Source: Pseudomonas sessilinigenes (GTDB lineage: Bacteria; Pseudomonadota; Gammaproteobacteria; Pseudomonadales; Pseudomonadaceae). Taken from it: a stretch of DNA of 64,000 nucleotides. Below, in pieces: positions 29,149-58,526 of this stretch. Each line of letters begins with the position of its first letter. Position 1 is the first letter of the stretch. The notes under the pieces are model-generated. The model did not search any database. It was not told the origin of the DNA and worked only from the letters and a program-made list of their open reading frames with translations. The DNA lies in contig NZ_CP027706.1 of NCBI RefSeq assembly GCF_003850565.1, positions 5,146,001-5,210,000 of the forward strand. Direction: 5' to 3'. Position numbers and translations under genes: made by a program.

Positions 29149-31530
29149 GTGACCGATCTACTCAATCGCCTCGCCGATGGTTGGCTAGCGCTGCCGGTGC
29201 TCGAGGTCCTTGACCAACATGGCGTGCTGCGCGCCCTGGAAAGCGCGCCCGACGGCATCAGCGCCCGCAGCTTGGCCCGGGCCTGCGCCGCCAACGAGGG
29301 CCAGTTGCGGGTGGCCTTGCGTCTGTTGCTGGAGCTGGGATGCGTGGTGCAGCTGGCCAACGATCACTACGGGCTGACGCCAGGGATGAGCATTCGCATC
29401 CCGGCCTGCGCCGGCGCGCTGATTCGCCTGTCGCTGCCGCAGTTGCTGGGCGAGCCTGCCGGCCACGAACTGCGCTCCTGGCTCGAGCGTTCCGCTGGTG
29501 GCTGGGAAAATGCTCCCGAGCCGATGGCGACCTGCCTGGACGGGGCACTGCTGGCACCGTTAGTGATGGCGCTGGAACAGGCCGGCGGCGCGCAGGTCTT
29601 GCAAGAGCAGGGGGCTAGCACCGGAGGGCCGGCCACAGGGCTGTCCAGTGCGGTGCTGGAGGCGCTGCGCCGATACTTCGAGCAACGTACCTGGGGATAT
29701 TGGCAAGGCAACGGTTTTTGCCTGAACGATGCCGGCCGTGCACTGCTGGAAGGCACTGCGCAGTTGCGCGCGAGCCTGGCCTGGCAACCGCTGCCGGGCC
29801 AATTGCAGGTACTGCTGTTCGGCGATGCCAGCTCGATCCAGGAACCCAAGGAGGAAGATGCAGGTTCTTGGCCGACCGAGTATCTCGCTGCGTTCGAGGC
29901 TGCCGTCGTCGCTCGATTCGACCAACAGCCGCTGGAGCAACAACCAGGTTATCTCGTCGAGGTGGGCTGCTCCGAAGGGGCGTTGCTGCGTCGCCTGTAC
30001 CTGGCCATCGCCAATCACAGTCGGCGTGGCCAGCACCTCGAGCGCTACCCGCTGCGGCTGATCGGCGTCACGGCCAGCAGCAAGCAGCACGCCCGGGGGC
30101 AGCAAACCCTGGAAGGCCTGCCGCACCTGTTATTGACCGGTGACGTCGGCGATCCCCAGGGGCTGCTTGCCAGCCTGGGCGCCAACGGTATCCGCGACCT
30201 GGAGAACATCCTCTATATCCATGCCTTCCAGGAACATCGGCGGGCCTGGCAGCCGCCAGTCTCGACCCGGGGCATCGACGACCAGCGCCATGCGCGCCCA
30301 AGCAGTGTTCATGTGGATCGGCATGGAGCCTGCATCGAACCGGCGGCAGCCTTGCAGGGCCTGGTCGAACATCTGGCCCGCTGGCAGGAAATCACCACAC
30401 ACCACGGCCTGATACTGCTGGCCGCCCATTGCCTGCACCCTGGTAGCGCGCAACAGCATGCCCGGCGCAGCGGGGCGCTGCATCTGGACGCCAGCCACGG
30501 TTTTGCCGGGCACCAGCTGTTCGAGGCCCCGGTGTTCCTGCTGGCCGCGGCGCAAGCCGGATTGTTTCCGGATCGGGCCGTGGCCCAGGGCTTGCCCCGT
30601 GGCGAGTTGTTCACCCAGGCCAGCCTGAATCGTCTGTTGCCACGGCATTACCGTATCCACCACCCATTACCCAGGGACTTGCCACGGCTGCGAGAACTGG
30701 AGCTGGCCTGCTGGCCCAGCGGGCTGGGGGCTACCGAAGCGGTGTTGCAGCGCCGGTTGGAGCTCTACCCCCAAGGCCAACTGGTGCTCGAGTACCAGGG
30801 GCAGCTAGTGGCGGCGATCTATTCCCAGCGCTTGGCGGCGGTCGAGCAGCTACGCCACAGCGATTGCTTTCAGGTCGAGGCTTTGCATGATCCGGCCGGC
30901 CCCGTCGCACAGCTGCTGGGTATTTGCGTGCACCCGGAACACCAGGGCGAGGGGCTGGCCGATGAGCTGATCGATTTCACGCTGGTATACCTGGCCAGCC
31001 TCGACGCAGTGCGCAACGTGGTCGGGGTGACGCGCTGTCATCACTATGACGCCCGCCGAGCTGACGCCTTGTCGCTCAAGGACTACATCCGCCGCAGGGA
31101 CGAGGTTTCCGGGCGCTTGCTCGAACCCATGTTGTGGTTTCACGAAAGTCATGGCGCGCAGGTGCGCGAGGTACTGGAGGGCTATCGGCCCGGCGATGCG
31201 GTCAACCGCGACGCCGGGGTCCTGGTGGAATACCCCGATGTGCGGAACATGCCCCCGCCACTCAAGACAACGGCAGCGCCATCACTGGCCGTCCCGTCCG
31301 GACAGTGGCCGCAGGTGGTAGGCCAATTGCTGCTGGGGGTGTTGGGCGAAGCCCGGGCCGAGGCCTACGGCGAGCACGTGCCATTGATGGAAATGGGCCT
31401 GACTTCGTTGCAGATGCTCGATTTGCGCCATCGCCTGGCGGAGCGCCTGGCCAGCCCGCTGCCGGCCACGTTCTTTTTCCAGCACGGGACCCCGGCGGCG
31501 ATCATCGCCTATCTGCAAAACCACAGTGCC
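29149..31530 (+). other. PKS1 loading module: AprA-type MT - GNAT - ACP
   Basis: The N-terminus has a winged-helix-like region and a SAM-methyltransferase fold ('VEVGCSEGALLRRLY'). The 'ILYIHAFQEHRRAWQPP' and 'HGFAGHQLFEAPVFLLAAAQAGL' stretches align with the starter MT of AprA, SxtA and GphF. A GNAT-like decarboxylase follows ('LGICVHPEHQGEGLADELIDF', 'VVGVTRCHHYDARR', 'YRPGDAVNRDAGVLVEYP'), then a starter ACP ('MGLTSLQML'). In relatives this set gives acetyl, propionyl or isobutyryl starters depending on how many methyl transfers occur. Metal ligands look partly diverged (EH for the usual DH), so MT activity is uncertain. Confidence 0.75.
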
Positions 31531-34500
31531 CCGGCCCACGAGCGAACCAGGCACGCGCCTGCGCCGGTAGCCGAGCCGGCGCCTTGTGCTCCCGACCCCG
31601 GGGGCATCGCCATCGTCGGTGTGGGCTGTCGCTTTCCTGGCGGCGCCTCTTCACCGGAGCGTTTCTGGAGCCTGTTGCAACAGGGCATCGATGCGGTTGG
31701 TCAGCGGGATGGCCCGGACGACGAGCTGGAGCGCGGTGGTTTCATCGAGGGCGCGCAGGAGTTCGACCCACGTTTCTTTCGTATTTCCCCCAGGGAAGCG
31801 CAGCTGCTCGATCCCCGGCAGCGGCTGTTGCTGGAAACCGCCTGGGAGGCACTGGAGCAGGCGGCGATCGCGCCAAGCAGTTTGCGTGGTTCCAGTACCG
31901 GGGTGTTCGTCGGCCTGATGGGGCATGGCTATGACTTGCTCTTGCGGCAAACGGGGCAGGGGCACGAGTCCAGGCCGGCCTTCACCACCGGCAATGCGGC
32001 TTCGGTCGCGGCCGGGCGTCTGGCGTATTTCTTCGACTGGCATGGGCCGGCGCTGTCGGTGGACACCGCTTGCAGTTCATCACTGGTGGCGGTCCACCTG
32101 GCCTGTGAAAGCCTGCTGGGCGGCAAGTGCGAGGTGGCCCTGGCCGGTGGCGTGAACCTGCTGCTGGATCAGGCGGAGTCCGAGGCCTTCCGCGCTGCCG
32201 GCATGCTCTCGCCGCGGGGCAGTTGCAGCACCTTCGATGAGGCCGCCGATGGCTATGTCCGGGGCGAAGGCTGCGGGCTCCTGGTGCTCAAGCGTCATGC
32301 CGACGCCCTGGCTGCCGGCGACCCGATATGGGCGGTCATCCGAGGCAGTGCGATCAATCACGATGGCGCCAGTGCCGGGCTGACCGTGCCGAACCAGTCG
32401 GCCCAGCGTGGGGTCATCGAAGCCGCGCTGGCCCAGGCCGGCCTGGCCCCGCACCAGGTGCAGTACCTGGAAGCCCACGGCACCGGCACTCGCTTGGGCG
32501 ACCCGATCGAGGTGCAGGCCGCCGCCCAGGCATTGGGAGCTGGCCGGCAAGCGCAGCGTCCGCTGCTGCTCGGCTCGGTCAAGGCCCAGCTCGGGCACCT
32601 GGAGGCCGCCGCCGGCGTGGCGGGGCTGATCAAGGTCATTCTTGCCATGGGCAAGGGGCAGATCCCCGGGCAACTGCACTTTCGCTCACCCAACCCGCAG
32701 GTGGACTGGGCCAACCTGCCGGTGCAGGTGGTCGATCGGCCTCGCCCGTGGTTCGCCGGCCGGCGGATTGCCGGCGTCAGCAGCTTCGGTTTCAGCGGCA
32801 CCAACGCCCATGTGCTGCTGGAAGCCTGTGAACCACCGCCACCTGCTGTAGCGAATATTGCTGAGCCAGTGCTGATCCTGCTTTCGGCGCGGACCCGGGA
32901 CCGCCTGCTGGCCAGCGCCGAACGCTTGCGCGCGGTGGTGGCGGATGGCCGCTTTGCCCCAGCGCAGTTGCGCGATATCGCCTACACCCTACAGGTTGGG
33001 CGTGAGGCCATGGCCCATCGTCTGGCGTTGCTGGCCCGTTCATTGCCGGATCTGGCCAGCAAACTGGCAGGGCTGGGCCAGCCCGGGGTCGAGGCTGGCG
33101 AGCTGTGGCTGGGCGAAGCCTCCCAGGATCACCCGCCGCCTGCCGATGCCCCGGCCAACGTAGCCCAGGATCGGCTGCAAGTCCTGGCGCAACGCTGGGT
33201 CCAGGGAGCCGTCGTGGACTGGACGCAACTCTACACAACACCGTTGCCACGCCGGATCGACTTGCCGACCTATCCGTTCGCCCGCCAGCTCTGCTCGGTA
33301 TTGCATGGAAGCACAACAGGGAGCATCACTATGGAGCGTCAACCCCCACAGTCGCCAACCACCGCCTTCGCGGGCGGCTCGTCCCAGTCCGGGCTCGATG
33401 ACGGCAAGCCGCGCAAGTTGCAGTTGCGCGCCCTGGAGGATGGACCAGCCATCGAGCCCCCGGCGGCGCAGGAGCAGGCAGAGCCGGTAGCCGCGCAAGA
33501 CTCGCCCATGGCCGCCCAACCGGTCGCAGCGGCCCGTGCCCCGGAGCTTGCCCCCCATGTGCAGGCCGAGCGGCGCGCGCTACTTGAGCGCGAGCTGACC
33601 ACCAGCCTCGCCGCCGCGCTGTTCCTCGATCCTGGCGAGATCGGCCTGGATCATTTGTTCGTCGACCTGGGCCTGGATTCGGTGATCGGTGTCGAATGGG
33701 TCCGTGATCTCAACCGGCGCTATGGCCTGGCGCTGAACGCACCGGTGGTTTATGAGCATTCCAGCGTCAGGCGCATGGCCGCCCTGGTCGAGCAGGCCTT
33801 GCAGCCCAAGGCGCCGATCCAGGTTCAAGGGCCATCGGCTTCGCTTGCCCCGCAGCCGACTGTCGCCAGGGCTGCGGCCAGCCCAGAACCGCCTGCACAA
33901 CCAGAGATGGCGCAAATACCAGCCGCGCCTGCACCTGGTGCGGCCGGGAGCGCAACGGCCAGCGAAGGTATCGCCATCATCGGCATGTCCGGGCGCTATC
34001 CGGGAGCACCGACGCTGGATGCCTACTGGGACAACCTGGTGGCCGGTCGCGACTGCGTCGAGGAGATCCCGCCAGCGCGCTGGAGCATCGACGACTACTA
34101 CGATCCCGAGGCCGGCAAGCCGGGCAAGACCTACAGCAAGTGGCTGGGCCGGCTGGATGACATCGACTGTTTCGATCCGTTGTTCTTCAATATCTCGCCG
34201 GCAGAGGCGGAATGGATCGACCCTCAGCAGCGCCTGTTCCTGGAGGAGGGCTACAAGGCCTTCGAGGACGCGGGGTATCCGCCGCAGAAATTGAGCGATG
34301 CCCGCTGCGGGGTGTACCTGGGCATCATGGGCCCCAGTGAATACGGCTGGCTGGCCCAACAGCAGCGCGGCGCGGCGGAAATCACCGGCAGGAGCGAGGC
34401 GATAGCCGCCGCGCGCCTGGCCTATTTCCTTAATCTCAAGGGGCCGGCGCTGCTGGTGGACACCGCTTGCTCGTCGTCCCTGGTGGCCACGCACCTGGCC

Positions 34501-37500
34501 TGCCAGGCGCTGCGCAGCGGCGAAGTGGATGTGGCCCTGGTGGGCGGCGCCACCCTGTACCTGTCGCCCGAGATATACATGAGCATGTGCCAGGCCGGCA
34601 TGCTCTCGCCCACGGGCAAATGCCGGACCCTGGACAACGCCGCCGATGGCATCGTGCCCGGCGAGGGCGTCGGCGCCCTGGTACTCAAGCGCCTGGCCGA
34701 TGCCGAGCGCGATGGCGATCGTATTCACGGAGTGATCGTTGCGTCGGGCATCAACCAGGATGGCAAAACCAACGGCATCACTGCGCCCAGCGCCAGCAGC
34801 CAGATCGCCCTGGAGCGCGAGGTGTACGCCCGCCACGGCATCGATCCGCGGAGCATCTCCTATGTCGAGTTGCACGGTACGGGAACCAAGCTGGGCGACC
34901 CGATCGAGCTGACAGCCCTGGATACGGTGTTCCGTGAGCGGACCGAGCAGCGCAATTTCTGCGGCCTGGGTTCGGTCAAGAGCAACATCGGCCATACCAC
35001 GGCAGCAGCCGGGGTCGCCGGGGTGCACAAGGTACTGCTGCAGATGCGCCACCGTGAACTGGCACCGACTCTGCACTTCGCCACGCCGAACGAGCATTTT
35101 GATTTCGCCCGCTCGCCGTTCTTCGTCAATACCCACCACCAGGGCTGGCTAGTCGCCGCTGGCCAGCCGCTGCGCGCGGCGGTCAGCGCCTTCGGCATCA
35201 GCGGGACCAATGCCCACGTGGTGATCGATGCCTACCAGCCGGCTGTCGTACCGCCGGCCGCCGAGGCGGGTGCCCCGGCGCTGCTGGTGCTGTCCGCGCA
35301 ACGCGCTGACCGTTTGCAGGAATACGCCAAGGCACTGTTGCAATTCATCGAGCAGCAACCACGACTCGACCTGGCGGCCCTGTCCTACAGCCTGCAAACC
35401 GGCCGCGCGGCCCTGGGGCAGCGGCTGGCCTTCGTCGCTACCTCGCTGGAACAGGTACGCCAGGCGCTGGGCGACTTCATCAGCGGTACGCCATCGGCAT
35501 GCCTGCTGAGCGGCGAAGTGGCGACGGCCAAAGACGCCGCTTCGGTGTTGGCCGGCGAGGAGGAGTTCCAGCAGCTGTTGGTCAGCCTGTTGGAGAAACG
35601 GCGCCTGCAGAAGCTGGCCGAACTCTGGGTCAGAGGGGTGGTGATCGACTGGTCGTGCTTGTATGGCGCCGATCGTCCGCGCCGCTTGTCGCTGCCGACC
35701 TATCCCTTCGCCCGGGAGCGCTATTGGGTAACGCCCCAGGCGGCGTCCGGCTCATTGCCAGATGAGCGGGCGGTCCTGCACCCATTGCTCCACTGCAATA
35801 GTTCGACCCTGCACGAACAGCGCTACAGCACCCGACTCTCGGGTAAAGAATGGTTCGTTCGCGAACACCGGGTGGCCGGGCAACCGGTGGTGCCGGGGGT
35901 GGTGCAACTGGAGTGGGCCCGCGCAGCGGCGGCCCTGGCCAGCGAACTGCCAGTGGGGCAGCCGATGGTGCTGGAGGAGGTGGCCTGGTTGCGCCCGCTG
36001 GTGGTCAGCCAGCCGCTACTGGTGCATATCGGCCTGGTCGAAGAGCCGGGGCGCGGGGTCCGTTATGAGATCCATAGCGGCACCGGCGCGCAAAAACAGC
36101 TTTATAGCCAAGGCTGGGTGCGCCCCGCGAGCGGGCAACCAGCGCCGCAGGTCGACCTGGCCGCCGTAGGTGCCTCATGCGAGTCGCGGGTGGACGCAGC
36201 GAGCTGCTATGCGCGCTTCACCGAACAGGGCCTGGAGTACGGCGTGGGGTTTCGCGCCCTGAAGGAACTGCGCAGCGGCCCCCTGACAGCGTTGGCGAGC
36301 CTGGCTGTGGCCAGCGCGGCGCCGGGCTATACCTTGCCGCCATCCCTGCTGGATGGCGCATTGCAGGCCGCTACTGGCTGGTTGGCCAAACCGGCGCTGC
36401 AACTGCCATTTGCCGTGACCCGGGTCGAACAGTGGGGCCCGCTACCGGACTTGGCATGGGCGGTGGTGCAGCGTGCCAGCGGGGAGCAGGGCGCAGGGCA
36501 GAGCTTCGATGTCGACCTGGCGCACGCCGATGGCCAGGTTGCGGTGCGCCTGAGCGGCTTTTGCTGTCGCACGCCCGCGCAACCAAGGCTTGCGGGAGAG
36601 CTGACCCTGGCCCCACGTTGGCAAACGCTAGAGGCCGTGAAGACCATCGCCGATACCCAGGACCAGCACCTGTTGGAAGTTCCAGAGGCGATCGCTCGCC
36701 AATGGGGCACGCCCGATGGGGCTGCAGCCTGTGCCAGCTGGTTGGGCGCCTGGGCCGGGTTCGACCATCTGCTCTGGCATGTGCCGCAGGGTCAGCCCGG
36801 GGTCGCACGAATCGGCCTGCAACTGGTCCAGGCGCTTTTGGCCCTGGACTACGGTAGCCGGCCCCTGGCGTTGACGGTGGTCACCCGCCAGGCGCTGCCT
36901 GTTCTGGCCACAGAAACCGGCGATCCAGAACAGGCCAGTGTCCACGGGCTGATGGGTTCGGTGGCCAAGGAATATAGTCATTGGCAGGTGCGCGTGCTCG
37001 ACCTCGCCGGCCAGGACTCATGGCCTTCCGCGCAGGCTGGCCCGGATGTGCCAGAACTGCCGGGGGAAACCCTGGCCCTGCGCGACGGCCAATGGTATCG
37101 CCAGCGCCTGGTGCCCTGCGTACTGCCGGACGTCGTCGACAGCGGGCTGCGCGAACGGGGGGTCTACCTGATCCTCGGTGGTGCCGGCGGTCTGGGCACG
37201 GTCTTCAGTGAATACCTGATCCGTCGCTACCAGGCCCAGGTGATATGGCTGGGCCGCCGTGAGGCCGATGAGGCGATCGAGGCGCAACGGACGCGCCTGG
37301 GCAGCCTTGGCCCCACGCCGCTCTACCTGCGGGCGGACGCCAACGACCGGGCGGCGCTGGAAGCCGCCGAGCAGACCGTTCGCCGCCGTTATGGCGCGGT
37401 GCATGGCGTGGTGCACGCCGCCATCGTGCTGGAGGATCGCGGCGTGGCGCAGATGGCCCCGGGGGTATTCGATGCCGCGCTACGGGCCAAGGCGGCCACC

Positions 37501-40500
37501 AGCGAGAACCTCGATGCGGTGTTCGGCCGGCAAGACCTGGATTTCATGCTGTTTTTCTCATCGATGCAAAGCTTCATCCGCGCCCCGGGCCAGGCCAACT
37601 ACGCCGCCGGTTGCTGCTACGCCGATGCCTTTGCCCTGGGCCTGAGGGAACGGCCATACCCGGTGAAGATCGTCAACTGGGGCTATTGGGGCAGTGTCGG
37701 CATAGTGGCCAAGGCCAGCTATCGGCAGCGAATGGAGGCGGCCGGGATCGGCTCGATCGAAGCACCACAGGCCATGGCGCTGCTGGAGCGCCTGCTGGCC
37801 AGCCCACTGTCACAGCTGGCGTTCTTCAAGGCCCGACATGCGCAAGCTGCGAGCCAATGGGCAGTGGCGGACGATCGCCAGTTGCAGATCAGCGCGCCGG
37901 TGGCCCCGGTGATCTTGAATGGCGACTCCTCGCTCGGCCTGCCACAGCGGGCGGCCCCGGTGCTGGCCGAGTTGGAGCGTAGCCTGGCGCAACTGCTACG
38001 CAATCTGCTGGCCCATCAGGGCTGGGAGCATGGCCCTGCAGGCTTGGCTTCGGCCTACGTCGGTTGGCGCGAGGATGCCCTGCGCCTGCTGGACGCCAGT
38101 GGCCAGGCGCAGGCGGCGACGGACTGGCCTGGCGCCTGGCGACAATGGGAGGTCGACCGCGAGCGCCTGCTGCAAGGCCCCGACCAGGCTGTGGTGCACA
38201 ACCAGATCCGCTTGCTCGATGCCGTGCTGCCGGCATTGCCCGGAGTACTGCGTGCAGAGTGCGCGGCCACCGCAGTGCTGTTCCCGGGCGGGAGCGTGGA
38301 GCGGGTGGAGGGTATCTATCGCGGTCATCCGCTGGCCGACTACTTCAACGCCGTGCTGGCGGAACAGCTGCAGGCCTATGTGGCACAGCGCTTGGCCGCT
38401 GATCCCCAAACGCGGTTGCGGATCATCGAGATCGGCGCGGGAACCGGCGGTACCAGCTCACGGCTGTTCCTGCACTTGGCGCCCTATGCGCAGGCGATCG
38501 ACGAGTACTGCTACACCGATGTGTCAGAGGCATTCCTGGCCCACGGGCGTGAGCAGTACGGGGAGCAGGCGTCGTACCTGCGTACTGGCAACCTGGACAT
38601 AGAGCGCGATCCACGCAGCCAGGGCTTCGAACCCGGGCACTACGACGTGGTGGTAGCGGCCAATGTCCTGCATGCGACGCGAGACATCCGCCGCACCCTG
38701 CGGCACGTCAAGAGCCTGCTGCGGGGCAATGGCCTGCTGTTGCTCAACGAACTGACCCGGGCCAGCCTGTTCACCCACCTGACCTTCGGCTTGCTCGATG
38801 GTTGGCGAATGGCGACTGACGTTGCGTTGCGGGTTCCCGGGACCCCGGCATTGGCGCCATCGACCTGGCGGCACGTACTGGAGCTCGAGGGTTATGGCTC
38901 GCTGAACCAGCCGGCGGCAGCGGCCCATGGCCTGGGCCAGCAAATCGTCACCGGCATCAGCGATGGGGTGATCGAGTTCCAGGGCGAGGCGGCGCGGCAA
39001 GCAGGGCATGAGAGCGGCGACAGTGCTGCCTGGGAAACTCGCCCAGCAAGCCCGGCGCCGAGCTCGCAGCCAACGGACTTGGCGCAAGAGCGCGGGATGC
39101 CGGTGCGCCAGGCGATCCACGAGGCGCTGTTGGAAGTGCTGAAACTCGACCGCGCCCGGGTGCAGGAGGACCAGGCCTTTGCCAACTACGGTGTGGACTC
39201 GATCACCGGCATCACCTTGATCAACGCGCTCAACCAGAAGCTCGGTCTGCGCCTGCCGGTCACGGCGCTGTTCGATTTTCCGTCGATCAAGGCGCTGGCC
39301 GAGCATATCCAGCGCACGTACCCGTCCCTGGAACAACAAACCAGCCGTACCGAGGCGCCTGCAGCCAGGTGGCCGGTGCCGCCAGTGGCCGTAACCGAGC
39401 CCAGACGCCGGCGCGCACCGGCCAGCGCCGAGCCTGCCCGGGTCGAGGTACTGCCATTCGCCGAGGGGGTGGAGCAAGTGCCGCAGGTGTGCCGGCAATT
39501 GCGAATCGAGGGCCCGGGGCGGATCGATGAGCTGCAACCTATCGAAGCGCCCTTGCTGCCGTTGGGGCCGGACGAAGTGCGGATCGCAGTACGCGCCTTC
39601 GCCCTGAACTTCGGCGACCTGTTGTGCGTCAGCGGCCTGTATCCCACCCAGCCGCCATATCCCTTCACCCCGGGTTTCGAGGCCAGCGGCGTGGTGCTGG
39701 AGGTGGGGGGAGAGGTGTCGCGGGTTGCGCTCGGCGATGCGGTGTTCGCCTTGGCTGGCGAAGCCTTGGGTGCCCACGCCAGCGTCATGACCTGCCCCCA
39801 GGACCGGGTGTTCGCCTTGCCGCAGGGGCTGTCGTTCGAGGAAGCCTGCGCGCTGCCGGTGGTGGCCTTGACCATGATCGCCAGCTTTGCCCGGGCCCAG
39901 GTCAAGCCCGGCGAGCGGGTACTGATCCAGACCGCCACCGGCGGCACCGGGTTGATCGCCGTACAACTGGCGCAGCATGCGGGGGCGCAGGTCTACGCCA
40001 CCGCCGGCTCCCAGGAAAAACTCGACTACCTGGCCGGGCTGGGGGTCGCCCACCGGATCAACTATCGCGAAGAGGACTTCGAGCAAGCAGTGTCGCGACT
40101 GACCCAGGGCCAGGGCGTGGACGTGGTGATCAATACCCTGGCCGACGATGCACTGCAGAAAGGCTTCAATTGCCTGGCTCCTGGCGGGCGTTATGTCGAA
40201 CTGGCGATGACCGCATTGAAATCGGCCCGCAGCATCGACCTCTCACGGCTCAACGACAACCAGTCGTTCATCAGTATCGACCTGCGCAAGCAGACCCGGG
40301 ACAACCCGGTGCTGCTGCAAGAGTTGGCCGATGAAATGACCAGGTTGCTGGAGGCTGGGGTGATCCGGCCCACCTTGAGCCGGGTCTTCGCTTTCAGCGA
40401 GGTGCAGGACGCCTACCGCTGGCTGGCTGACCGGCGCAACATCGGCAAGGTGGTGGTCCGGGTGCCGCAAGCGACAGTCGTTCCGGAGCCTGCGCCGCAG

Positions 40501-43023
40501 CTTGCCAGCGACCCGGGCCGGCCGGAGCCGATCGCGGTGATCGGCATGAGCGGCCGGTTCGCCAGTGCCGACAACCTGGACGACCTCTGGCAGGTCCTCG
40601 TCCAGGGCCAGGACCTGCTGGAAGACGTGACGCGCTGGGACTTGTCGCGACATTTTCCCGCCTATGCGCCTTATTGCCGGCGTGGCGGTTTCCTGCGCGA
40701 TATCGATTGCTTCGATCCGCTGTTCTTCAATATTTCCGGGCGCGAGGCCAAGGTCATGGACCCGCAGCAGCGCCTGTTCCTCGAAGAAGCCTGGCGCGCC
40801 TTGGAAGACGCCGGGTATGCGGGCTCTAGCGGCGAAGGCTTGCGCTGTGGGGTCTATGTGGGCTGCGCGGCGGGCGATTACCAGCGGCTGTTGGAGAGCG
40901 ACGCGCCGGCGCAGGCGTTCTGGGGCAATTCCGGTTCGGTGATTCCAGCGCGCATCGCCTATCACCTCAACCTGCAGGGCCCGGCTGTGGCGATCGATAC
41001 CGCCTGCTCCAGCTCGCTGGTGGCGTTGCATCAGGCCTGCCAGGGGCTGCGCACCGGGGATGCCGACCTGGCTTTGGCTGGCGGCGTGTTCGTGCAAAGC
41101 ACCGAGCTGTTCCATCTCCAGGCCCAGCGGGCCGGCATGCTCTCGCCCAGCGGTTGTGCCTATGCCTTCGATGCCAAGGCCGATGGTTTCGTCCCAGGGG
41201 AGGGCGTCGGTGCAGTCGTGCTCAAGCGCCTGTCCCAGGCCCTGGCCGATGGCGATGTGATCCACGGTGTGATCCGCGGCACGGGAGTCAATCAGGATGG
41301 CGCGAGCAACGGCATCACGGCCCCCAATGCCACTGCCCAGGCCCGGCTGGAACTGGAGGTCTATCGGCGTCACGGTATCGAGGTCGAGCACATCGGCCTG
41401 GTGGAGGCCCACGGTACCGCGACAGTGCTGGGTGACCCGATAGAGGCCAGGGCCCTGGCCGATGCCTTCGCCCAAGGTGGCCATAGTGGCGCACCTTGTG
41501 CCCTTGGCTCGATCAAGAGCACGGTGGGGCACACGGCCACAGCGGCCGGCATCGCCGGAGTACTCAAGGTTCTGCTGGCGTTGCGGCACCGACAGATCCC
41601 GGCGTCGGCGCATTTCGTCAGTGCCAATCCGCACATCGATTTTTCCCACGGTCCGTTCCATGTCCCCACCCGCACCGAACAGTGGCGCCGGCCGGTGGCC
41701 GGGGAGCGGCTGGCGGCCGTCAGCTCATTCGGTTTCAGCGGTACCAACGCCCATGCGGTGATCGCCGAGGCGCCCGAGCGGCCGGTGCGGCCATCGGCCA
41801 GCCCGCTGCATCTGGTGGTGCTGTCGGCCAGGACCATTGCGCAACTACGGCTGCAGGCAAAGAACCTGCTCGCCCACCTGCAGTATGAGTCCGTCGAGCC
41901 AGGTGCCATGAGCCACACCCTGTTGTTGGGCCGGCGCCACCTCGAACAGCGCCTGGCCTGGGTCACCAGCGACGTGTATGCACTACGCACGCAGCTGGCG
42001 CATTGGTTGGATGTTGGCAAACTGGTCGACGGCTACAGCGGGATCGTCGACGGTACCCAGGAAGCCTCCACCAAGGCCCAGGCCGTGGCCGACCAGTGCT
42101 TGCAGGACTGCCGCGCGCAGGCCAATCCCGAAGTGCTCCGCGGTGCACTGCTGTCACTTGCGCAACTGTATGTAGAGGGGATCGAGCTGGATTGGGCGCG
42201 ATTGTTCCAGGGACAGCAGCCGGGCCGGGTTGCATTGCCAACCTATCCCTTCGAGAAAGAGCGCTATTGGCCGTCCGGCAAGGAGCAAGAGGACCGGCAG
42301 GCCGCTGCTCAGGCGCAACTGGCGTCAGTCCAGGCCGAACCCTCGGCAGCGCCCGCCACGCTGGTGCAGGTCAGCGCCAGCAAGCCAGCTGCGGCAACCC
42401 ATGCCAAATCCGGCCGTCTCAAGTTGCGCTCCCTGGAGCAAGACCTGGAAGCCCTGGACAGCATCGCACCCGAGGTCGCACCGCCGGCGCAACATGTTCC
42501 CACCCTGCAGTTGCGGCCACTGCGGACGATTGCCGAACCGGAAGACTCGGCAGTCGTCCCCGTCCAGCTGCCACCCGCAACGCTACAAGCCGTTGCCGAG
42601 CCGGTATCGGTTGCCGTCCCGGCGGTACAGCAGAACCAGCAGGTACCCGGAATTGACCGCTACTCGCTGGAGCGTGAGCTGTCCGAGAGCCTCGCTCGGG
42701 CGCTGGGCATCGACGTGGAACGAATCCAGGCGGACAAGCCCTTCGCCTCGATGGGCATGGATTCGATCATCGCCGTGGAGTGGAGTCGCGAGATCAACAG
42801 GCGCTACGGGCTGGCCATCGGTGCGACCGCGGTCTACAAGCATCCGACCCTGGCCGGCATCGTCACCTTGGTGGCCGCTCAGCTCGAGGCGAATGTGCCG
42901 GGTGTCGTAGAAGCATCCGCGCCGCTAAATGCGCCCGATCACTTGGAGCAGGCTATCGCCATGCATGTTCAGGCAGCCCCAGAGAGCGGGAGGCAAAATC
43001 CGTGTACGGATTCCTGTGCTTGA
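29149..43023 (+). CDS. Trans-AT polyketide synthase 1 (loading module plus modules 1-3)
   Basis: This giant protein has about 4,624 residues. I chose the GTG at 29149 because GGAGG lies 6 nt upstream; in-frame ATGs at 29068 and 29086 would add 27 or 21 residues with no good ribosome binding site. Order (approximate residues): AprA/SxtA-type MT 1-495; GNAT 497-667; ACP 720-790; KS1 819-1234; ACP(W) 1474-1547; KS2 1607-2030; DH 2209-2477; KR 2665-2880; MT 2940-3260; ACP 3319-3389; MDR enoylreductase 3451-3774; KS3 3794-4207; ACP(W) 4504-4577. No AT domain is present; every KS is followed by the trans-AT post-KS linker ending 'LPTYPFxRxRYW' or a close variant. All three KS have Cys-His-His. The chain is then passed to PKS2. 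Confidence 0.95.
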   Translation: MTDLLNRLADGWLALPVLEVLDQHGVLRALESAPDGISARSLARACAANEGQLRVALRLLLELGCVVQLANDHYGLTPGMSIRIPACAGALIRLSLPQLLGEPAGHELRSWLERSAGGWENAPEPMATCLDGALLAPLVMALEQAGGAQVLQEQGASTGGPATGLSSAVLEALRRYFEQRTWGYWQGNGFCLNDAGRALLEGTAQLRASLAWQPLPGQLQVLLFGDASSIQEPKEEDAGSWPTEYLAAFEAAVVARFDQQPLEQQPGYLVEVGCSEGALLRRLYLAIANHSRRGQHLERYPLRLIGVTASSKQHARGQQTLEGLPHLLLTGDVGDPQGLLASLGANGIRDLENILYIHAFQEHRRAWQPPVSTRGIDDQRHARPSSVHVDRHGACIEPAAALQGLVEHLARWQEITTHHGLILLAAHCLHPGSAQQHARRSGALHLDASHGFAGHQLFEAPVFLLAAAQAGLFPDRAVAQGLPRGELFTQASLNRLLPRHYRIHHPLPRDLPRLRELELACWPSGLGATEAVLQRRLELYPQGQLVLEYQGQLVAAIYSQRLAAVEQLRHSDCFQVEALHDPAGPVAQLLGICVHPEHQGEGLADELIDFTLVYLASLDAVRNVVGVTRCHHYDARRADALSLKDYIRRRDEVSGRLLEPMLWFHESHGAQVREVLEGYRPGDAVNRDAGVLVEYPDVRNMPPPLKTTAAPSLAVPSGQWPQVVGQLLLGVLGEARAEAYGEHVPLMEMGLTSLQMLDLRHRLAERLASPLPATFFFQHGTPAAIIAYLQNHSAPAHERTRHAPAPVAEPAPCAPDPGGIAIVGVGCRFPGGASSPERFWSLLQQGIDAVGQRDGPDDELERGGFIEGAQEFDPRFFRISPREAQLLDPRQRLLLETAWEALEQAAIAPSSLRGSSTGVFVGLMGHGYDLLLRQTGQGHESRPAFTTGNAASVAAGRLAYFFDWHGPALSVDTACSSSLVAVHLACESLLGGKCEVALAGGVNLLLDQAESEAFRAAGMLSPRGSCSTFDEAADGYVRGEGCGLLVLKRHADALAAGDPIWAVIRGSAINHDGASAGLTVPNQSAQRGVIEAALAQAGLAPHQVQYLEAHGTGTRLGDPIEVQAAAQALGAGRQAQRPLLLGSVKAQLGHLEAAAGVAGLIKVILAMGKGQIPGQLHFRSPNPQVDWANLPVQVVDRPRPWFAGRRIAGVSSFGFSGTNAHVLLEACEPPPPAVANIAEPVLILLSARTRDRLLASAERLRAVVADGRFAPAQLRDIAYTLQVGREAMAHRLALLARSLPDLASKLAGLGQPGVEAGELWLGEASQDHPPPADAPANVAQDRLQVLAQRWVQGAVVDWTQLYTTPLPRRIDLPTYPFARQLCSVLHGSTTGSITMERQPPQSPTTAFAGGSSQSGLDDGKPRKLQLRALEDGPAIEPPAAQEQAEPVAAQDSPMAAQPVAAARAPELAPHVQAERRALLERELTTSLAAALFLDPGEIGLDHLFVDLGLDSVIGVEWVRDLNRRYGLALNAPVVYEHSSVRRMAALVEQALQPKAPIQVQGPSASLAPQPTVARAAASPEPPAQPEMAQIPAAPAPGAAGSATASEGIAIIGMSGRYPGAPTLDAYWDNLVAGRDCVEEIPPARWSIDDYYDPEAGKPGKTYSKWLGRLDDIDCFDPLFFNISPAEAEWIDPQQRLFLEEGYKAFEDAGYPPQKLSDARCGVYLGIMGPSEYGWLAQQQRGAAEITGRSEAIAAARLAYFLNLKGPALLVDTACSSSLVATHLACQALRSGEVDVALVGGATLYLSPEIYMSMCQAGMLSPTGKCRTLDNAADGIVPGEGVGALVLKRLADAERDGDRIHGVIVASGINQDGKTNGITAPSASSQIALEREVYARHGIDPRSISYVELHGTGTKLGDPIELTALDTVFRERTEQRNFCGLGSVKSNIGHTTAAAGVAGVHKVLLQMRHRELAPTLHFATPNEHFDFARSPFFVNTHHQGWLVAAGQPLRAAVSAFGISGTNAHVVIDAYQPAVVPPAAEAGAPALLVLSAQRADRLQEYAKALLQFIEQQPRLDLAALSYSLQTGRAALGQRLAFVATSLEQVRQALGDFISGTPSACLLSGEVATAKDAASVLAGEEEFQQLLVSLLEKRRLQKLAELWVRGVVIDWSCLYGADRPRRLSLPTYPFARERYWVTPQAASGSLPDERAVLHPLLHCNSSTLHEQRYSTRLSGKEWFVREHRVAGQPVVPGVVQLEWARAAAALASELPVGQPMVLEEVAWLRPLVVSQPLLVHIGLVEEPGRGVRYEIHSGTGAQKQLYSQGWVRPASGQPAPQVDLAAVGASCESRVDAASCYARFTEQGLEYGVGFRALKELRSGPLTALASLAVASAAPGYTLPPSLLDGALQAATGWLAKPALQLPFAVTRVEQWGPLPDLAWAVVQRASGEQGAGQSFDVDLAHADGQVAVRLSGFCCRTPAQPRLAGELTLAPRWQTLEAVKTIADTQDQHLLEVPEAIARQWGTPDGAAACASWLGAWAGFDHLLWHVPQGQPGVARIGLQLVQALLALDYGSRPLALTVVTRQALPVLATETGDPEQASVHGLMGSVAKEYSHWQVRVLDLAGQDSWPSAQAGPDVPELPGETLALRDGQWYRQRLVPCVLPDVVDSGLRERGVYLILGGAGGLGTVFSEYLIRRYQAQVIWLGRREADEAIEAQRTRLGSLGPTPLYLRADANDRAALEAAEQTVRRRYGAVHGVVHAAIVLEDRGVAQMAPGVFDAALRAKAATSENLDAVFGRQDLDFMLFFSSMQSFIRAPGQANYAAGCCYADAFALGLRERPYPVKIVNWGYWGSVGIVAKASYRQRMEAAGIGSIEAPQAMALLERLLASPLSQLAFFKARHAQAASQWAVADDRQLQISAPVAPVILNGDSSLGLPQRAAPVLAELERSLAQLLRNLLAHQGWEHGPAGLASAYVGWREDALRLLDASGQAQAATDWPGAWRQWEVDRERLLQGPDQAVVHNQIRLLDAVLPALPGVLRAECAATAVLFPGGSVERVEGIYRGHPLADYFNAVLAEQLQAYVAQRLAADPQTRLRIIEIGAGTGGTSSRLFLHLAPYAQAIDEYCYTDVSEAFLAHGREQYGEQASYLRTGNLDIERDPRSQGFEPGHYDVVVAANVLHATRDIRRTLRHVKSLLRGNGLLLLNELTRASLFTHLTFGLLDGWRMATDVALRVPGTPALAPSTWRHVLELEGYGSLNQPAAAAHGLGQQIVTGISDGVIEFQGEAARQAGHESGDSAAWETRPASPAPSSQPTDLAQERGMPVRQAIHEALLEVLKLDRARVQEDQAFANYGVDSITGITLINALNQKLGLRLPVTALFDFPSIKALAEHIQRTYPSLEQQTSRTEAPAARWPVPPVAVTEPRRRRAPASAEPARVEVLPFAEGVEQVPQVCRQLRIEGPGRIDELQPIEAPLLPLGPDEVRIAVRAFALNFGDLLCVSGLYPTQPPYPFTPGFEASGVVLEVGGEVSRVALGDAVFALAGEALGAHASVMTCPQDRVFALPQGLSFEEACALPVVALTMIASFARAQVKPGERVLIQTATGGTGLIAVQLAQHAGAQVYATAGSQEKLDYLAGLGVAHRINYREEDFEQAVSRLTQGQGVDVVINTLADDALQKGFNCLAPGGRYVELAMTALKSARSIDLSRLNDNQSFISIDLRKQTRDNPVLLQELADEMTRLLEAGVIRPTLSRVFAFSEVQDAYRWLADRRNIGKVVVRVPQATVVPEPAPQLASDPGRPEPIAVIGMSGRFASADNLDDLWQVLVQGQDLLEDVTRWDLSRHFPAYAPYCRRGGFLRDIDCFDPLFFNISGREAKVMDPQQRLFLEEAWRALEDAGYAGSSGEGLRCGVYVGCAAGDYQRLLESDAPAQAFWGNSGSVIPARIAYHLNLQGPAVAIDTACSSSLVALHQACQGLRTGDADLALAGGVFVQSTELFHLQAQRAGMLSPSGCAYAFDAKADGFVPGEGVGAVVLKRLSQALADGDVIHGVIRGTGVNQDGASNGITAPNATAQARLELEVYRRHGIEVEHIGLVEAHGTATVLGDPIEARALADAFAQGGHSGAPCALGSIKSTVGHTATAAGIAGVLKVLLALRHRQIPASAHFVSANPHIDFSHGPFHVPTRTEQWRRPVAGERLAAVSSFGFSGTNAHAVIAEAPERPVRPSASPLHLVVLSARTIAQLRLQAKNLLAHLQYESVEPGAMSHTLLLGRRHLEQRLAWVTSDVYALRTQLAHWLDVGKLVDGYSGIVDGTQEASTKAQAVADQCLQDCRAQANPEVLRGALLSLAQLYVEGIELDWARLFQGQQPGRVALPTYPFEKERYWPSGKEQEDRQAAAQAQLASVQAEPSAAPATLVQVSASKPAAATHAKSGRLKLRSLEQDLEALDSIAPEVAPPAQHVPTLQLRPLRTIAEPEDSAVVPVQLPPATLQAVAEPVSVAVPAVQQNQQVPGIDRYSLERELSESLARALGIDVERIQADKPFASMGMDSIIAVEWSREINRRYGLAIGATAVYKHPTLAGIVTLVAAQLEANVPGVVEASAPLNAPDHLEQAIAMHVQAAPESGRQNPCTDSCA
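31603..33800 (+). other. PKS1 module 1: KS - ACP(W), beta-branching
   Basis: KS1 has its nucleophile at Cys codon 32071 ('DTACSSS'), with 'EAHGTG' and 'KAQLGHLEAAAG' histidines. No reductive domain follows. The ACP has phosphopantetheine Ser at 33679 and, six residues on, Trp at 33697 ('GLDSVIGVEW'), the signature of ACPs recognised by the HMG-synthase cassette. The beta-keto group formed here, the starter carbonyl, should become a C-methyl branch. Confidence 0.85.
33967..40470 (+). other. PKS1 module 2: KS - DH - KR - MT - ACP - ER
   Basis: KS2 nucleophile Cys codon is 34468. DH has 'HRVAGQPVVPG' and 'LLDGALQ', both catalytic residues present. KR has 'GGAGGLG', 'FFSSMQS' and 'NYAAG'. C-MT has 'EIGAGTGGTS' and 'NVLHATRD'. 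The ACP ('GVDSITGI', Ser near 39199) lacks the Trp. A complete MDR-type enoylreductase ('ALNFGDLL', 'PGFEASGVV', 'TATGGTGLIAVQLA') sits after the ACP, an unusual place. Expected outcome: alpha-methyl group with a double bond that the ER may saturate. Confidence 0.85.
40528..42885 (+). other. PKS1 module 3: KS - ACP(W), beta-branching
   Basis: KS3 nucleophile Cys codon is 41005, with 'EAHGTATVLGD' and 'KSTVGHTATAAG'. The ACP carries Ser at 42763 and Trp at 42781 ('GMDSIIAVEW'). Between KS and ACP is a 250-residue Ala/Pro/Gln-rich linker. This is the second beta-branching position; the C-terminus of PKS1 follows. Confidence 0.85.
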
Positions 43024-43081
43024 CTGCATTTTCATCCCGCACCCGCCATGGATATGGCGATAGCCCGCAGTGGAGGCGGCA

Positions 43082-43864: not shown

Positions 43865-43865
43865 G

Positions 43866-44615: not shown

Positions 44616-44661
44616 TTAGCCGTTGCCCGGTGCGATATTCCTTCAAGAGCGAGGCACAAGC

Positions 44662-44916: not shown

Positions 44917-44985
44917 CACGGATGGACCGGGCAGGGCGCGCCAGGTCTGGCGCGCCGCCAGAGGTAACGCACAACGGAGGTGCCA

Positions 44986-46089: not shown

Positions 46090-46151
46090 CCATCCATGCA
46101 GCCATGGGCCGGCCCGTTGCCTTCGCCCGAATCGACAATCCTGGTGCCAAC

Positions 46152-47384
46152 ATGCTTGCCACTCGACCACTACCCGTTGCGATCACCGGTGTCGGTATCG
46201 TTTCCGCCATTGGCCAGGGCCGGGAGGCCTTTACCCGCGCACTGCTGGCCGGCGACGCCGCTTTCGGCGTGCTGCAACGCCCCGGGCGCCAGGGGCAAAG
46301 CCGTTTTCTCGGCGCCGAACTCGGCCCCCTGCAACTGCCGCCGGAGCGTTCGCCACGGTTGTTCCGGCAGTTGTCGCTGACTGCCGAAGCGGCCCTGGTG
46401 GCCTTGCATGAAGCCTGGCAGGACGCCCGCCTGGAGGACGTGGACCCGCAGCGCGTCGGCCTGGTCGTCGGTGGCTGCAACCTGCAGCAACGTGAACTGG
46501 CCCAGCTCCATGAGCGCTATACCGGGCGCGAGGCCTTCGTGCGGCCGGGTCATGGCGTCGAGTTCATGGACAGCGACTTGTGCGGGTTGTGTACCCAGCA
46601 GTTCGGCATCCAGGGCATGGCCTGCACCGTGGGCGGCGCCTCGGCCAGCGGCCAGGTCGCGGTGATCCAGGCGCTACAGGCGGTGCAGTCGGGACAGGTG
46701 GATGTGGCGATCGCGCTGGGCGCCCTGATGGATCTGTCGCATTGGGAGTGCCAGGCGTTGCGTTCTTTGGGGGCCATGGGCTCCGAGCGCTATGCCGATG
46801 CGCCGATGCAGGCGGCCCGGCCGTTCGACCGCGACCGTGACGGCTTCATCTATGGCGAGTGCTGCGGTGCGGTGGTGGTGGAACGCTTGGCCAACCCCGC
46901 GCGCAGCACCGTCCGGCCCTATGCGCAATTGTCCGGCTGGGGCTGGACCATGGATGCCAACCGCAATCCCGACCCATCGCGCGAGGGCGAGATGCGCGCC
47001 ATCGCCCAAGCCCTGGAACGCGCGGGCCTGGCCCCGGGGCAGATCGACTATGTGAACCCCCACGGGACCGGCTCGCCCCTGGGCGATGTGGTGGAGCTGG
47101 CTGCCCTGCGCGACAGCGGCCTGGGCCACGTGCGCCTCAACACCAGCAAGTCGCTGCTTGGCCATGGGCTCACCGCCGCCGGCACCGTGGAGGTAATTGC
47201 CACGCTGGTGCAGATGTGCGAAGGGCGCCTGCACCCGAGCCGTAACCTGGACACGCCGATCGATCCGTCCTTCGACTGGATCCGGGATGCGGCAAGGCCG
47301 CACTCGATAGAGCACGCCCTGACCCTGAGCATGGGTTTTGGCGGCATCAACACCGCGTTGTGCCTGACGCGTCATGAGCGATGA
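46152..47384 (+). CDS. Decarboxylating ketosynthase homologue with Cys-to-Ser change (PksF-like)
   Basis: This ~410-residue KS-fold protein has Ser164 ('VGGASASGQVAV') where condensing enzymes have the nucleophilic Cys. The histidines remain ('NPHGTGSPLGD', 'LLGHGLTAAG'). Such 'KSS' proteins decarboxylate malonyl on the donor ACP to acetyl and cannot condense. I set the start at ATG 46152 from family alignment; an ATG at 46104 is possible and neither has a clear ribosome binding site. It sits between the AT and the HMG-synthase gene, the normal cassette position. Confidence 0.87.
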   Translation: MLATRPLPVAITGVGIVSAIGQGREAFTRALLAGDAAFGVLQRPGRQGQSRFLGAELGPLQLPPERSPRLFRQLSLTAEAALVALHEAWQDARLEDVDPQRVGLVVGGCNLQQRELAQLHERYTGREAFVRPGHGVEFMDSDLCGLCTQQFGIQGMACTVGGASASGQVAVIQALQAVQSGQVDVAIALGALMDLSHWECQALRSLGAMGSERYADAPMQAARPFDRDRDGFIYGECCGAVVVERLANPARSTVRPYAQLSGWGWTMDANRNPDPSREGEMRAIAQALERAGLAPGQIDYVNPHGTGSPLGDVVELAALRDSGLGHVRLNTSKSLLGHGLTAAGTVEVIATLVQMCEGRLHPSRNLDTPIDPSFDWIRDAARPHSIEHALTLSMGFGGINTALCLTRHER

Positions 47385-47403
47385 ACAACCAAGGAGAAAG
47401 CCA

Positions 47404-48663
47404 ATGCTATCCGTAGGAATCGAAGCGATGAATGTGTTCGGCGGTCGAGCCTGCCTGGACGTTGCCGAACTGGCCGCGCACCGCCAGCTGGATACGGCGC
47501 GCTTCAATAATCTGCTGATGAAGGAAAAGACCGTCGCGCTGCTGGACGAGGACCCGGTGACCTATGCGGTGAACGCAGCACACCCTTTGGTGGAGGCGTT
47601 GTCGGCCGAAGAGAAGGCCCGGATCGAGTTGCTGATCACCTGCTCGGAATCGGGGATCGATTTCGGCAAGTCGCTGAGCACCTACGTCCATCACCACCTG
47701 GGACTGAACCGCAACTGTCGGTTGTTCGAGCTCAAGCAGGCTTGCTATTCGGGCACCGCGGGCTTGCAGATGGCGGTGAACTTCATCCTGGCCCAGGTCT
47801 CGCCGGGGGCCAAGGCGCTGGTGATCTCCACCGACCTGGCCCGGCACATGACCACCGGCGGCAGCGCCCTCACCGAGGACTGGTCCTTCGCCGAGCCCAG
47901 CACCGGTGCCGGCGCCGTGGCGATGCTGGTCAGTGACCAGCCGCGGGTCTTCGACATCGACGTTGGCGCCAACGGCTACTACGGCTACGAAGTGATGGAC
48001 ACCTGCCGGCCAACCGCGGATACCGAGGCCGGTGACTCCGACCTGTCGCTGCTGTCCTACCTGGACTGCTGCGAGAACGCATTTCTCGAGTACCAGAAGC
48101 GCGTCGGCGACGTCGACTATGTCGGCTCGTTTCGCTACCTGGCGTTCCATACGCCCTTCGGCGGGATGATCAAGGGCGCACATCGCACCATGATGCGCAA
48201 GCAGGTCCGGGCCGCGCCGGCGGACATCGAGGCCGATTTCCAGCGCCGGGTGACGCCGGGACTCAGCTATTGCCAGCGGGTCGGCAACATCATGGGCGGC
48301 ACCGTGCTGCTATCGCTGGCCAGCACCATCGCCAATGGCCGCTTCGAATCGCCGGGACGCATCGGTTGCTTCTCCTATGGCTCGGGCTGCTGTTCGGAGT
48401 TCTACAGCGGCGTGGTGCGCCACCTGGGGCAGGAGCAACTGCGTGCCCAGGAGATCGAGCGCCAGCTCGATAACCGCTACCGGCTGTCGATGAGCGAGTA
48501 CGAAGGGCTGTTGCAGAGCAACACGCAGGTGCGCTTCGGCACCCGCAACGTACGGATCGACGACGCCTGCAGCGTGCATCCGCAGTTGCCACGTGCGGAC
48601 CGTCCACAGCTGGTTCTGCGGGAAATCAAGGAATTCCACCGCGAGTACGAATGGGTCCAGTAA
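47404..48663 (+). CDS. HMG-CoA synthase homologue of the beta-branching cassette (PksG-like)
   Basis: This 419-residue enzyme adds the acetyl carbanion from the donor ACP to the beta-keto group on a Trp-type ACP. It begins 'MLSVGIEAMNVFGGRACLDV', a hallmark of these synthases. Catalytic residues are Glu82 ('TCSESGIDF'), Cys114 ('KQACYSGTAG') and His249 ('AFHTPFGGM'), in the positions expected for PksG/CurD. AAGGAG sits 8 nt before the ATG; an earlier ATG inside the KSS gene is less likely. The same enzyme family makes HMG-CoA in the mevalonate route. Confidence 0.95.
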   Translation: MLSVGIEAMNVFGGRACLDVAELAAHRQLDTARFNNLLMKEKTVALLDEDPVTYAVNAAHPLVEALSAEEKARIELLITCSESGIDFGKSLSTYVHHHLGLNRNCRLFELKQACYSGTAGLQMAVNFILAQVSPGAKALVISTDLARHMTTGGSALTEDWSFAEPSTGAGAVAMLVSDQPRVFDIDVGANGYYGYEVMDTCRPTADTEAGDSDLSLLSYLDCCENAFLEYQKRVGDVDYVGSFRYLAFHTPFGGMIKGAHRTMMRKQVRAAPADIEADFQRRVTPGLSYCQRVGNIMGGTVLLSLASTIANGRFESPGRIGCFSYGSGCCSEFYSGVVRHLGQEQLRAQEIERQLDNRYRLSMSEYEGLLQSNTQVRFGTRNVRIDDACSVHPQLPRADRPQLVLREIKEFHREYEWVQ

Positions 48664-48728
48664 GGACCTGGGCCCATGGGTGGCCGCGAACAATGGATGG
48701 TTTGCCAGACAACTGAAGGAGTCGATTC

Positions 48729-58499
<9,771 letters not shown>

Positions 58500-58526
58500 A
58501 GCGGTTTGTTGAGAGAGGACATGGAG

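Follow-up and report, generated by a model that had tools for sequence, protein, structure and literature searches.

The beta-methyl of bacillaene is formed by PksG, PksH and PksI, and the cluster of Bacillus velezensis DMB05, which from its gene order we take to be the bacillaene (bae/pks) cluster, is among the closest relatives of the system analysed here, a five-module trans-acyltransferase (trans-AT) polyketide synthase (PKS) line carried by a 64,000-nucleotide stretch of the Pseudomonas sessilinigenes genome (contig NZ_CP027706.1, positions 5,146,001 to 5,210,000; hereafter the window, whose own numbering is used below). Like this line, the bacillaene-type cluster has the same kind of 3-hydroxy-3-methylglutaryl (HMG) synthase (HMGS) cassette, tandem acyl carrier proteins (ACPs) carrying a Trp flag on a module that lacks a ketoreductase (KR), and the closest ketosynthase (KS) of the type that follows a beta-branch, whereas the stretch covered has one flagged module; the present line contains three such modules, in alternation with methylating ones. 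Two other clusters, from the Pseudomonas genome G079 and from Eleftheria terrae, are presumably kalimantacin/batumin-like and share with this line a GNAT loader, an HMGS cassette (HMGS 70% and ECH2 61% identical in G079) and several Trp-flagged modules, but their flagged modules are partly consecutive, there are many more modules and no strict alternation with C-methyltransferase (cMT) modules, and the thioester reductase (TR) of the present line was unmatched in the G079 stretch. CurA, GphF and AprA (curacin, gephyronic acid and apratoxin) have, as here, an AR-(methyltransferase)-GNAT-ACP loader before the first KS; the methyltransferase (MT) region of CurA is a lid only and the MT of AprA and GphF is active, and the loading MT found here, full length but degenerate, stands between the two. 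Loci of the same genus in genomes G292 (L039) and G310 (L043) contain a GNAT loader, kin of KS1 and KS3, and a KS-DH-KR-MT-ACP-ER module (DH, dehydratase; ER, enoylreductase) with an ER 63% identical to ours, but their module 1 carries a KR in place of the Trp flag, and HMGS was unmatched in the stretches covered. Each enzyme type of the line is individually known; to our knowledge, no known line has three HMGS-dependent beta-methylations strictly alternating with C-methylating modules on isoprenoid spacing, and such alternation was absent from all compared clusters, several of which were covered in part.

The line occupies positions 29068-58499 and consists of two large open frames in the open reading frame (ORF) listing, PKS1 (29068-43023, 4651 aa) and PKS2 (48729-58499, 3256 aa); a previous reading made from the letters alone (the sequence-only reading) had placed its start at 29149. 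Domains were located by Pfam and by hidden Markov models (HMMs) derived from the window and run on it and on its relatives, with both approaches in agreement, and gave the order AR-MT-GNAT-ACP / KS1-ACP1 / KS2-DH-KR-MT-ACP2-ER / KS3-ACP3 for PKS1 and KS4-DH-KR-MT-ACP4 / KS5-ACP5a-ACP5b-TR for PKS2, with a tandem ACP in module 5 that the sequence-only reading had not listed. The Pfam matches of PKS1 and PKS2 include no AT domain, while a separate FabD-type AT lies at 44980-46089 and RhiE-like linkers are present, which identifies the line as trans-AT. C-methyltransferases that look intact occur in modules 2 and 4 only (the motifs of the latter are intact by eye), as the sequence-only reading had stated, although it missed the third, degenerate MT of the loading module, which is matched by Pfam. 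Our favoured explanation, to which we would give as a whole a probability of about 0.55, is that a GNAT-started five-module trans-AT line introduces three beta-methyls and releases its chain through the TR for amination. The parts of the line are as follows.

29068-43023, + strand: PKS1, loading module and modules 1-3 (open frame, Pfam, HMMs)
29872-30630, + strand: loading methyltransferase, degenerate (PF23525)
30616-31236, + strand: GNAT decarboxylase-type loading domain (CurA 2ree and GphF 6mfc matches; motifs)
31300-31527, + strand: loading ACP (HMM)
31600-32841, + strand: KS1 (HMM; sister to KSs after GNAT loaders)
33577-33804, + strand: ACP1 with Trp flag (HMM)
33964-35247, + strand: KS2, post-beta-branch type (KS matches, tree)
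35740-38967, + strand: DH-KR-cMT of module 2 (Pfam, HMM)
39097-39324, + strand: ACP2, no Trp (HMM)
39475-40467, + strand: ER of module 2, behind the ACP (best match CurK ER 5dp1, 1e-48)
40525-41784, + strand: KS3 (HMM, tree)
42661-42888, + strand: ACP3 with Trp flag (HMM)
48729-58499, + strand: PKS2, modules 4-5 and release (open frame, Pfam, HMMs)
48822-50108, + strand: KS4, post-beta-branch type (KS matches, tree)
50607-53858, + strand: DH-KR-cMT of module 4 (Pfam, HMM)
53982-54218, + strand: ACP4, no Trp (HMM)
54348-55634, + strand: KS5, grouped with KSs after KR-DH modules (KS matches, tree)
56370-57002, + strand: ACP5a and ACP5b, Trp flag on both (HMM)
57318-58103, + strand: TR release domain (PF07993; carboxylic acid reductase 5msc, 6e-76)
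58506-59957, + strand: PfaD-type trans-acting enoylreductase (TIGR02814 over cut-off)

The Trp flag, defined as a Trp at Ser+6 in the ACP alignment, was present in ACP1, ACP3, ACP5a and ACP5b and absent from the loading ACP, ACP2 and ACP4, which bears out the claim that Trp-signature ACPs are restricted to modules 1, 3 and 5. All three KR-less modules of the line are thus flagged, against neither of its two KR modules, and in the other loci fetched a KR was likewise undetected by the window-built HMM in 15/15 Trp-flagged modules, while among 78 unflagged modules it was present in 53 and undetected in 25 (Fisher p 5e-7, the rows not being independent). A full HMGS cassette had also been proposed, and every component of it could be identified, by matches to PksG, PksH and PksI, by NCBIfam-type models and by sequence: donor ACP, decarboxylating KS, HMGS, ECH1 and ECH2 lie between the two PKS genes, all with open frames in the window, with HMGS nearest to PksG and CurD, ECH1 to PksH and ECH2 to PksI.

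43070-43864, + strand: ECH1 dehydratase (PksH 3hp0, 9e-96)
43863-44615, + strand: ECH2 decarboxylase, start approximate (PksI 4q1g, 2e-94)
44662-44916, + strand: free donor ACP (sequence match)
44980-46089, + strand: stand-alone acyltransferase (TIGR00128 over cut-off)
46149-47384, + strand: KS0, decarboxylating KS with Ser in place of the active-site Cys, start approximate (PRK07103 over cut-off; sequence)
47374-48663, + strand: HMG-ACP synthase (PksG 4yxq, 1e-194)

The kinship of the KSs was compared with the proposed order of branches in a set of 102 KSs, each labelled by the module preceding it and drawn from trans-AT clusters found in the genus and in its order, together with named sources (the bacillaene-type cluster of B. 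velezensis DMB05, pTML1 of Pseudoalteromonas, Eleftheria terrae, Nostoc UHCC 0926 and Photobacterium GJ3); near copies or outsiders (SEC, JANT, NOST, MAG, G377 and G183) were excluded, and only KS hits longer than 380 aa were retained. The 102-row tree was a quick one made without bootstrap, and a careful tree was built from 66 rows. For KS2 as for KS4, each of the 10 best matches stands behind a Trp-flagged ACP, as do 13 of the 101 other KSs (each list includes the other KS once), and after each other the best match of both is the bacillaene-type KS, at 64.6% identity to KS2 and 62.8% to KS4; these three make up a clade of their own in the quick tree, with a support value of 100. Across the tree, the Trp label against the DH and MT-DH labels required 4 changes, compared with 11.9 for shuffled labels and 0/500 shuffles as low, the shuffles ignoring relatedness. 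KS3 pairs with the G310 KS that stands behind an MT-ACP-ER module (97 in the quick tree), and KS1 groups with loading KSs, its nearest kin following the shorter GNAT loaders of G292 and G310. These placements support the assignment of KS2 and KS4 to the type following Trp-flagged modules and of KS3 to the type following methylating modules, and the position of KS4, whose own label crosses the PKS1/PKS2 border, fits a transfer of the chain from ACP3 of PKS1 to PKS2. The KS kinship would thereby support the branches at C11, C7 and C8, while that at C3 is argued solely from the flag and the module make-up.

Modules 2 and 4 are mutually nearest among the compared loci for KS (73%), DH (46%), KR (53%) and MT (56%), and for this reason they probably descended from one duplicated module; plain duplication of a two-module block was considered and rejected, KS3 and KS5 being of different kinds. 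Overall the line looks like a mosaic, with a loader, ER and KS3 nearest to those of G310 and G292 and a cassette nearest, among the compared loci, to that of G079. A role of the module 2 ER as a cyclopropanase was also considered and not favoured, as the nearest solved ER is that of CurK, with that of CurF behind it.

The loading region matches full-length MT-GNAT loaders (7ucl, 5e-130; AprA MT1 6b39, 3e-80), and its GNAT matches that of CurA at 2e-43. We aligned 17 loaders and counted conserved residues over six full-length homologues, two of them from one genome. Only 36 of the 67 MT residues invariant in these homologues are kept in the window (40 in a second copy of the line described below); in both copies the motif-II Asp and the SGFQH stretch are lost and the glycine motif is also among the changed residues. 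The GNAT, by contrast, retains VTRC and FHxSHGA and keeps 36/48 invariant residues in each copy. With these conserved motifs ahead of the loading ACP, the loader is of the CurA type, which would produce acetyl from malonyl, and on its conserved residues the MT does not qualify as an active MT of the AprA/GphF type. A propionyl or isobutyryl starter, initially adopted from the presence of the loading MT, was dropped after the residue counts. The degenerate MT and the conserved GNAT motifs thus favour an acetyl starter with the loading MT as a relic, in line with the sequence-only reading, which had derived a prenyl-like end from acetyl on module 1 while overlooking the loading MT. Loading MTs at other stages of decay also precede well-conserved GNAT domains in further PKSs from the genus, in G079 (L026), G061 (L032), G183 (L035) and G377 (L045).

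From domain logic, the following chemical steps, oxidation levels and product can be proposed. The GNAT would decarboxylate malonyl to the acetyl starter, which module 1 would extend; acetyl generated on the free ACP by KS0 would then be joined in an aldol reaction by HMGS, followed by dehydration by ECH1 and decarboxylation by ECH2 to a beta-methyl enoyl, giving senecioyl with its prenyl-like end on ACP1. Module 2 would add two carbons followed by alpha-methylation, reduction, dehydration and saturation, yielding 2,5-dimethylhex-4-enoyl on ACP2 if the ER works, and a second beta-methylation in module 3 would give 4-methylgeranoyl-ACP3. Module 4 would contribute an alpha-methylated unit whose olefin is kept unless PfaD reduces it, and module 5 the third beta-methyl. 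Release by the TR would then give 3,4,7,8,11-pentamethyldodeca-2,4,6,10-tetraenal (C17H26O) or, with PfaD reduction, 4,8-dimethylfarnesal (C17H28O). Beta-branches at C3, C7 and C11 and alpha-methyls at C4 and C8, counted from the released carbonyl, had been put forward as farnesane spacing and do follow from the module order.

The TR is similar to the reductase portion of carboxylic acid reductases, and four genes on the strand of the PKS, overlapping their neighbours by 4 bases, end 103 bp before a small 106-aa gene directly ahead of PKS1.

24567-25700, + strand: extended short-chain dehydrogenase/reductase (SDR), thioester-reductase-like, start TTG uncertain (PF07993; TIGR01746 far below cut-off; GxxGxxG, YxxxK)
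25697-26983, + strand: class III aminotransferase, start overlapping the reductase stop (PF00202; putrescine aminotransferase 4uox, 6e-87)
26980-27435, + strand: SRPBCC/polyketide-cyclase-like protein (PF03364)
27432-28559, + strand: acyl-CoA-dehydrogenase (ACAD)-like protein, weakly PigA/RedW-like (Pfam below gathering score; NCBIfam below cut-offs)
28663-28983, + strand: 106-aa protein, no Pfam match, directly ahead of PKS1, 88% identical in the second copy (sequence comparison)

The best NCBIfam match of the aminotransferase is putrescine aminotransferase (below cut-off), with prodigiosin PigE in fifth place. A C-terminal TR clustered with a transaminase is the arrangement of reductively released polyketide amines, if the transaminase acts on this chain. 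Coelimycin is described as made into an amine by a TR and transaminase pair and the tail amine of tambjamine as the work of a transaminase/TR fusion; both convert a carrier-bound chain to an amine as proposed here, but on unbranched C12 chains with a different PKS or fatty-acid source. The upstream aminotransferase would accordingly convert the aldehyde to an amine, approximately C17H29N, that may be altered further by the remaining upstream enzymes. The end product is thus probably an amine, with the farnesal-like aldehyde proposed by the sequence-only reading as its precursor: the TR that would release an aldehyde is present, but the aminotransferase set directly upstream on the same strand makes the amine likelier.

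Several observations weigh against parts of this explanation. The Trp flag is described as a good predictor of beta-branching that may not be its determinant (PMC10006238). The trans-AT cluster on plasmid pGJ3-1 of Photobacterium sp. GJ3 (L072) includes an HMGS gene and a loader of the GNAT type, but zero Trp-flagged ACPs in the stretch covered. Post-branch KSs are not one clade, since nine other Trp-labelled KSs form a second clade and KSs of the methylating type lie between, and 2/14 Trp-labelled KSs are placed elsewhere in the tree, both labelled across a gene border and one from an unusual ACP. The alternation of beta- and alpha-methyls predicted for the KS clades was found for KS2, KS4 and KS3 but not for KS5, the chief finding against it. 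In the quick tree KS5 falls together with five KSs whose upstream KR-DH modules lack a methyltransferase, and two of these KSs are bacillaene-type (support 90); in the careful tree it groups with a smaller set of KR-DH-type KSs (support 100/99). As these kin lack an upstream MT, the C4 methyl has to be argued from the MT domain of module 4 by itself and is the weakest, a doubtful one, while the same grouping makes it likely that the C4-C5 olefin is kept. For the C3 beta-methylation there is no downstream KS to check against. The predicted oxidation level hinges on whether and where PfaD acts; the GNAT was compared by motif, and the loading MT could still act on the starter. Finally, the aminotransferase set is unmatched within 70 kb around the second copy, so that the link of the tailoring genes to the PKS is one of position.

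The last of these points bears on the possibility that the released aldehyde, or an alcohol or acid derived from it, is itself the product and truly mimics farnesal, in which case the four genes upstream would serve something else. The second copy retains the line and PfaD, the 70 kb examined there contain nothing that matches the aminotransferase set, and homology between the copies starts at 28627, downstream of the four tailoring genes. This would nevertheless leave unexplained why the four genes overlap by 4 bases on the strand of the PKS and end 103 bp from a small gene conserved with it, and since TR and transaminase are an established pairing we regard an aldehyde product as rather improbable. 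A different fate of the chain would be a cyclic alkaloid, in which the polyenal is transaminated, oxidised by the ACAD-like protein and ring-closed as in coelimycin-type pathways, the isoprenoid spacing being only a stage. The aminotransferase, ACAD-like (weakly PigA/RedW-like) and SRPBCC genes do stand together and the kinship of KS5 suggests that a 2,4,6-triene is kept, but a cyclic imine of the usual kind would need a ketone that the predicted chain no longer has, the ACAD match scores under the Pfam cut-off and no cyclase was identified, making this outcome unlikely, if less so than the others weighed here.

At the other end of the chain, a loading MT working as in AprA and GphF would give a propionyl or isobutyryl starter and a C18-C19 chain whose end is of the ethyl or isopropyl type and not prenyl-like. 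An isobutyryl starter introduced via a GNAT loader is described for gephyronic acid and, as a proposal, for thiamyxin. The likeness of the whole loading region to 7ucl and AprA MT1 6b39 speaks for it, as does the retention in both copies of two His residues invariant in six homologues and of a third His present in 5/6; however, 27-31 of the 67 invariant residues are changed in the two copies, including the motif-II Asp, the glycine motif and SGFQH in both, and the closest kin of KS1 (G292, G310) follow shorter loaders that match over the GNAT rather than the MT. A working loading MT therefore appears quite unlikely to us, and acetyl is retained as the starter of the favoured GNAT-started line.

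The distribution of the line was assessed in genus, relatives and class samples, which overlap and in which 'genus' is the sample's own grouping. A loader of more than 44% identity was found in the window's own genome only, at both places. At 1e-20 the loader was matched in 8/398 genomes of the genus sample (the seven others at 33-44%), at 1e-60 in 2/194 of the relatives (the other one at 33%) and at 1e-40 in 2/369 of the class sample (the other one at 35%), and HMGS at E 1e-80 in 3/398 of the genus and 2/293 of the order, own genome included. A scan of named-genome contigs added two loader loci, in Nostoc favosum (34%) and in a gammaproteobacterial metagenome-assembled genome (32%); the present layout was absent from the part covered of both, and the ORF of the latter comprises the loader and two ACPs only. 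Among the matches listed from the open-licence literature we found no description of this line or of an isoprenoid-spaced polyketide, and nothing relevant among the ten of 216 matches listed for juvenile hormone. Prenyltransferase and terpene synthase families were absent from the 22 window proteins scanned with Pfam, which gives the locus no terpenoid character, and a genome-wide search for terpene synthases was uninformative, since its controls were silent too.

The second copy of the whole line lies in the same genome at C1:3316644-3346046 (loci L010 and L011). The two copies are identical over 12,500 bases (window 43698-56197), and between them identity is 96-100% from KS2 to ACP3 and 97% for PfaD, compared with 77% for the loader, 64% for ACP5ab and 80% for the TR. 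Because 12.5 kb without a difference lies beside strongly diverged loader and release ends, the best explanation of the pattern, given a correct assembly, is that two older paralogues recently underwent gene conversion or recombined with each other. As assembled, the ECH1 frame of the second copy is broken by two single-base indels, whereas that of the window is open; as the cassette is free-standing, a single copy of it could act for the two lines. For lasonolide, trans-AT clusters have been described that occur as repeats, one of which has a damaged beta-branching gene.

Three features upstream of the tailoring genes are suggestive of a mobile element, in a window context of ruvB-tol-TolB-tRNA.

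20376-20451, + strand: tRNA-Lys (ttt), likely insertion site of the element (ARAGORN, Rfam)
20791-22128, - strand: tyrosine integrase (PF00589)
22125-24023, - strand: TraI_2-type relaxase/helicase (PF07514, PF07515)

A 49-base, 94% copy of the 3' end of this tRNA-Lys, placed as might be expected of an attachment site, is present at C1:3427166-3427214, some 81 kb past the second copy of the PKS, and an integrating conjugative element protein is encoded near the second copy. Upstream of the second copy are phenazine-type genes (L009:7990-18036), with PhzG, a PhzF-family protein and an asparagine-synthase-type amidotransferase over cut-off and weaker anthranilate-synthase-like, DAHP-synthase and LuxR-type matches. 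These genes would point to a host resembling Pseudomonas chlororaphis, and the ruvB-tol-TolB-tRNA gene order likewise fits Pseudomonas.

Taken together, the layout of the line is confirmed and its interpretation by the sequence-only reading is partly supported. A more far-reaching idea, which we hold tentatively and consider doubtful though possible, is that a PKS has converged on sesquiterpenoid architecture, passing from a prenyl end through 4-methylgeranoyl-ACP to a C17 chain of the 4,8-dimethylfarnesal type with methyls at C3, C7 and C11 and trisubstituted double bonds at C2, C6 and C10, kin of HMG synthase acting at each isoprene-like position, and would supply terpenoid-like signals (farnesal- or juvenile-hormone-like mimics, or an amine) from malonyl on a mobile element. 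Pseudomonas is also the source of chlororaphen and grimophan, noncanonical C17 sesquiterpenoids with methylated farnesane-derived skeletons, which are made from farnesyl pyrophosphate by S-adenosylmethionine (SAM) methyltransferases/cyclases and terpene synthases and not by a PKS (PMC13022886). If the product is as predicted, the line would be a second, polyketide route to isoprenoid-like skeletons, in a genus whose terpene pathways yield C17 sesquiterpenoids as well. Since one cassette must act at three points of the line and be excluded from two, it would also offer a clean test of the beta-branching code, and its two copies, identical over 12.5 kb with diverged loader and release ends, constitute a natural experiment in assembly-line recombination.

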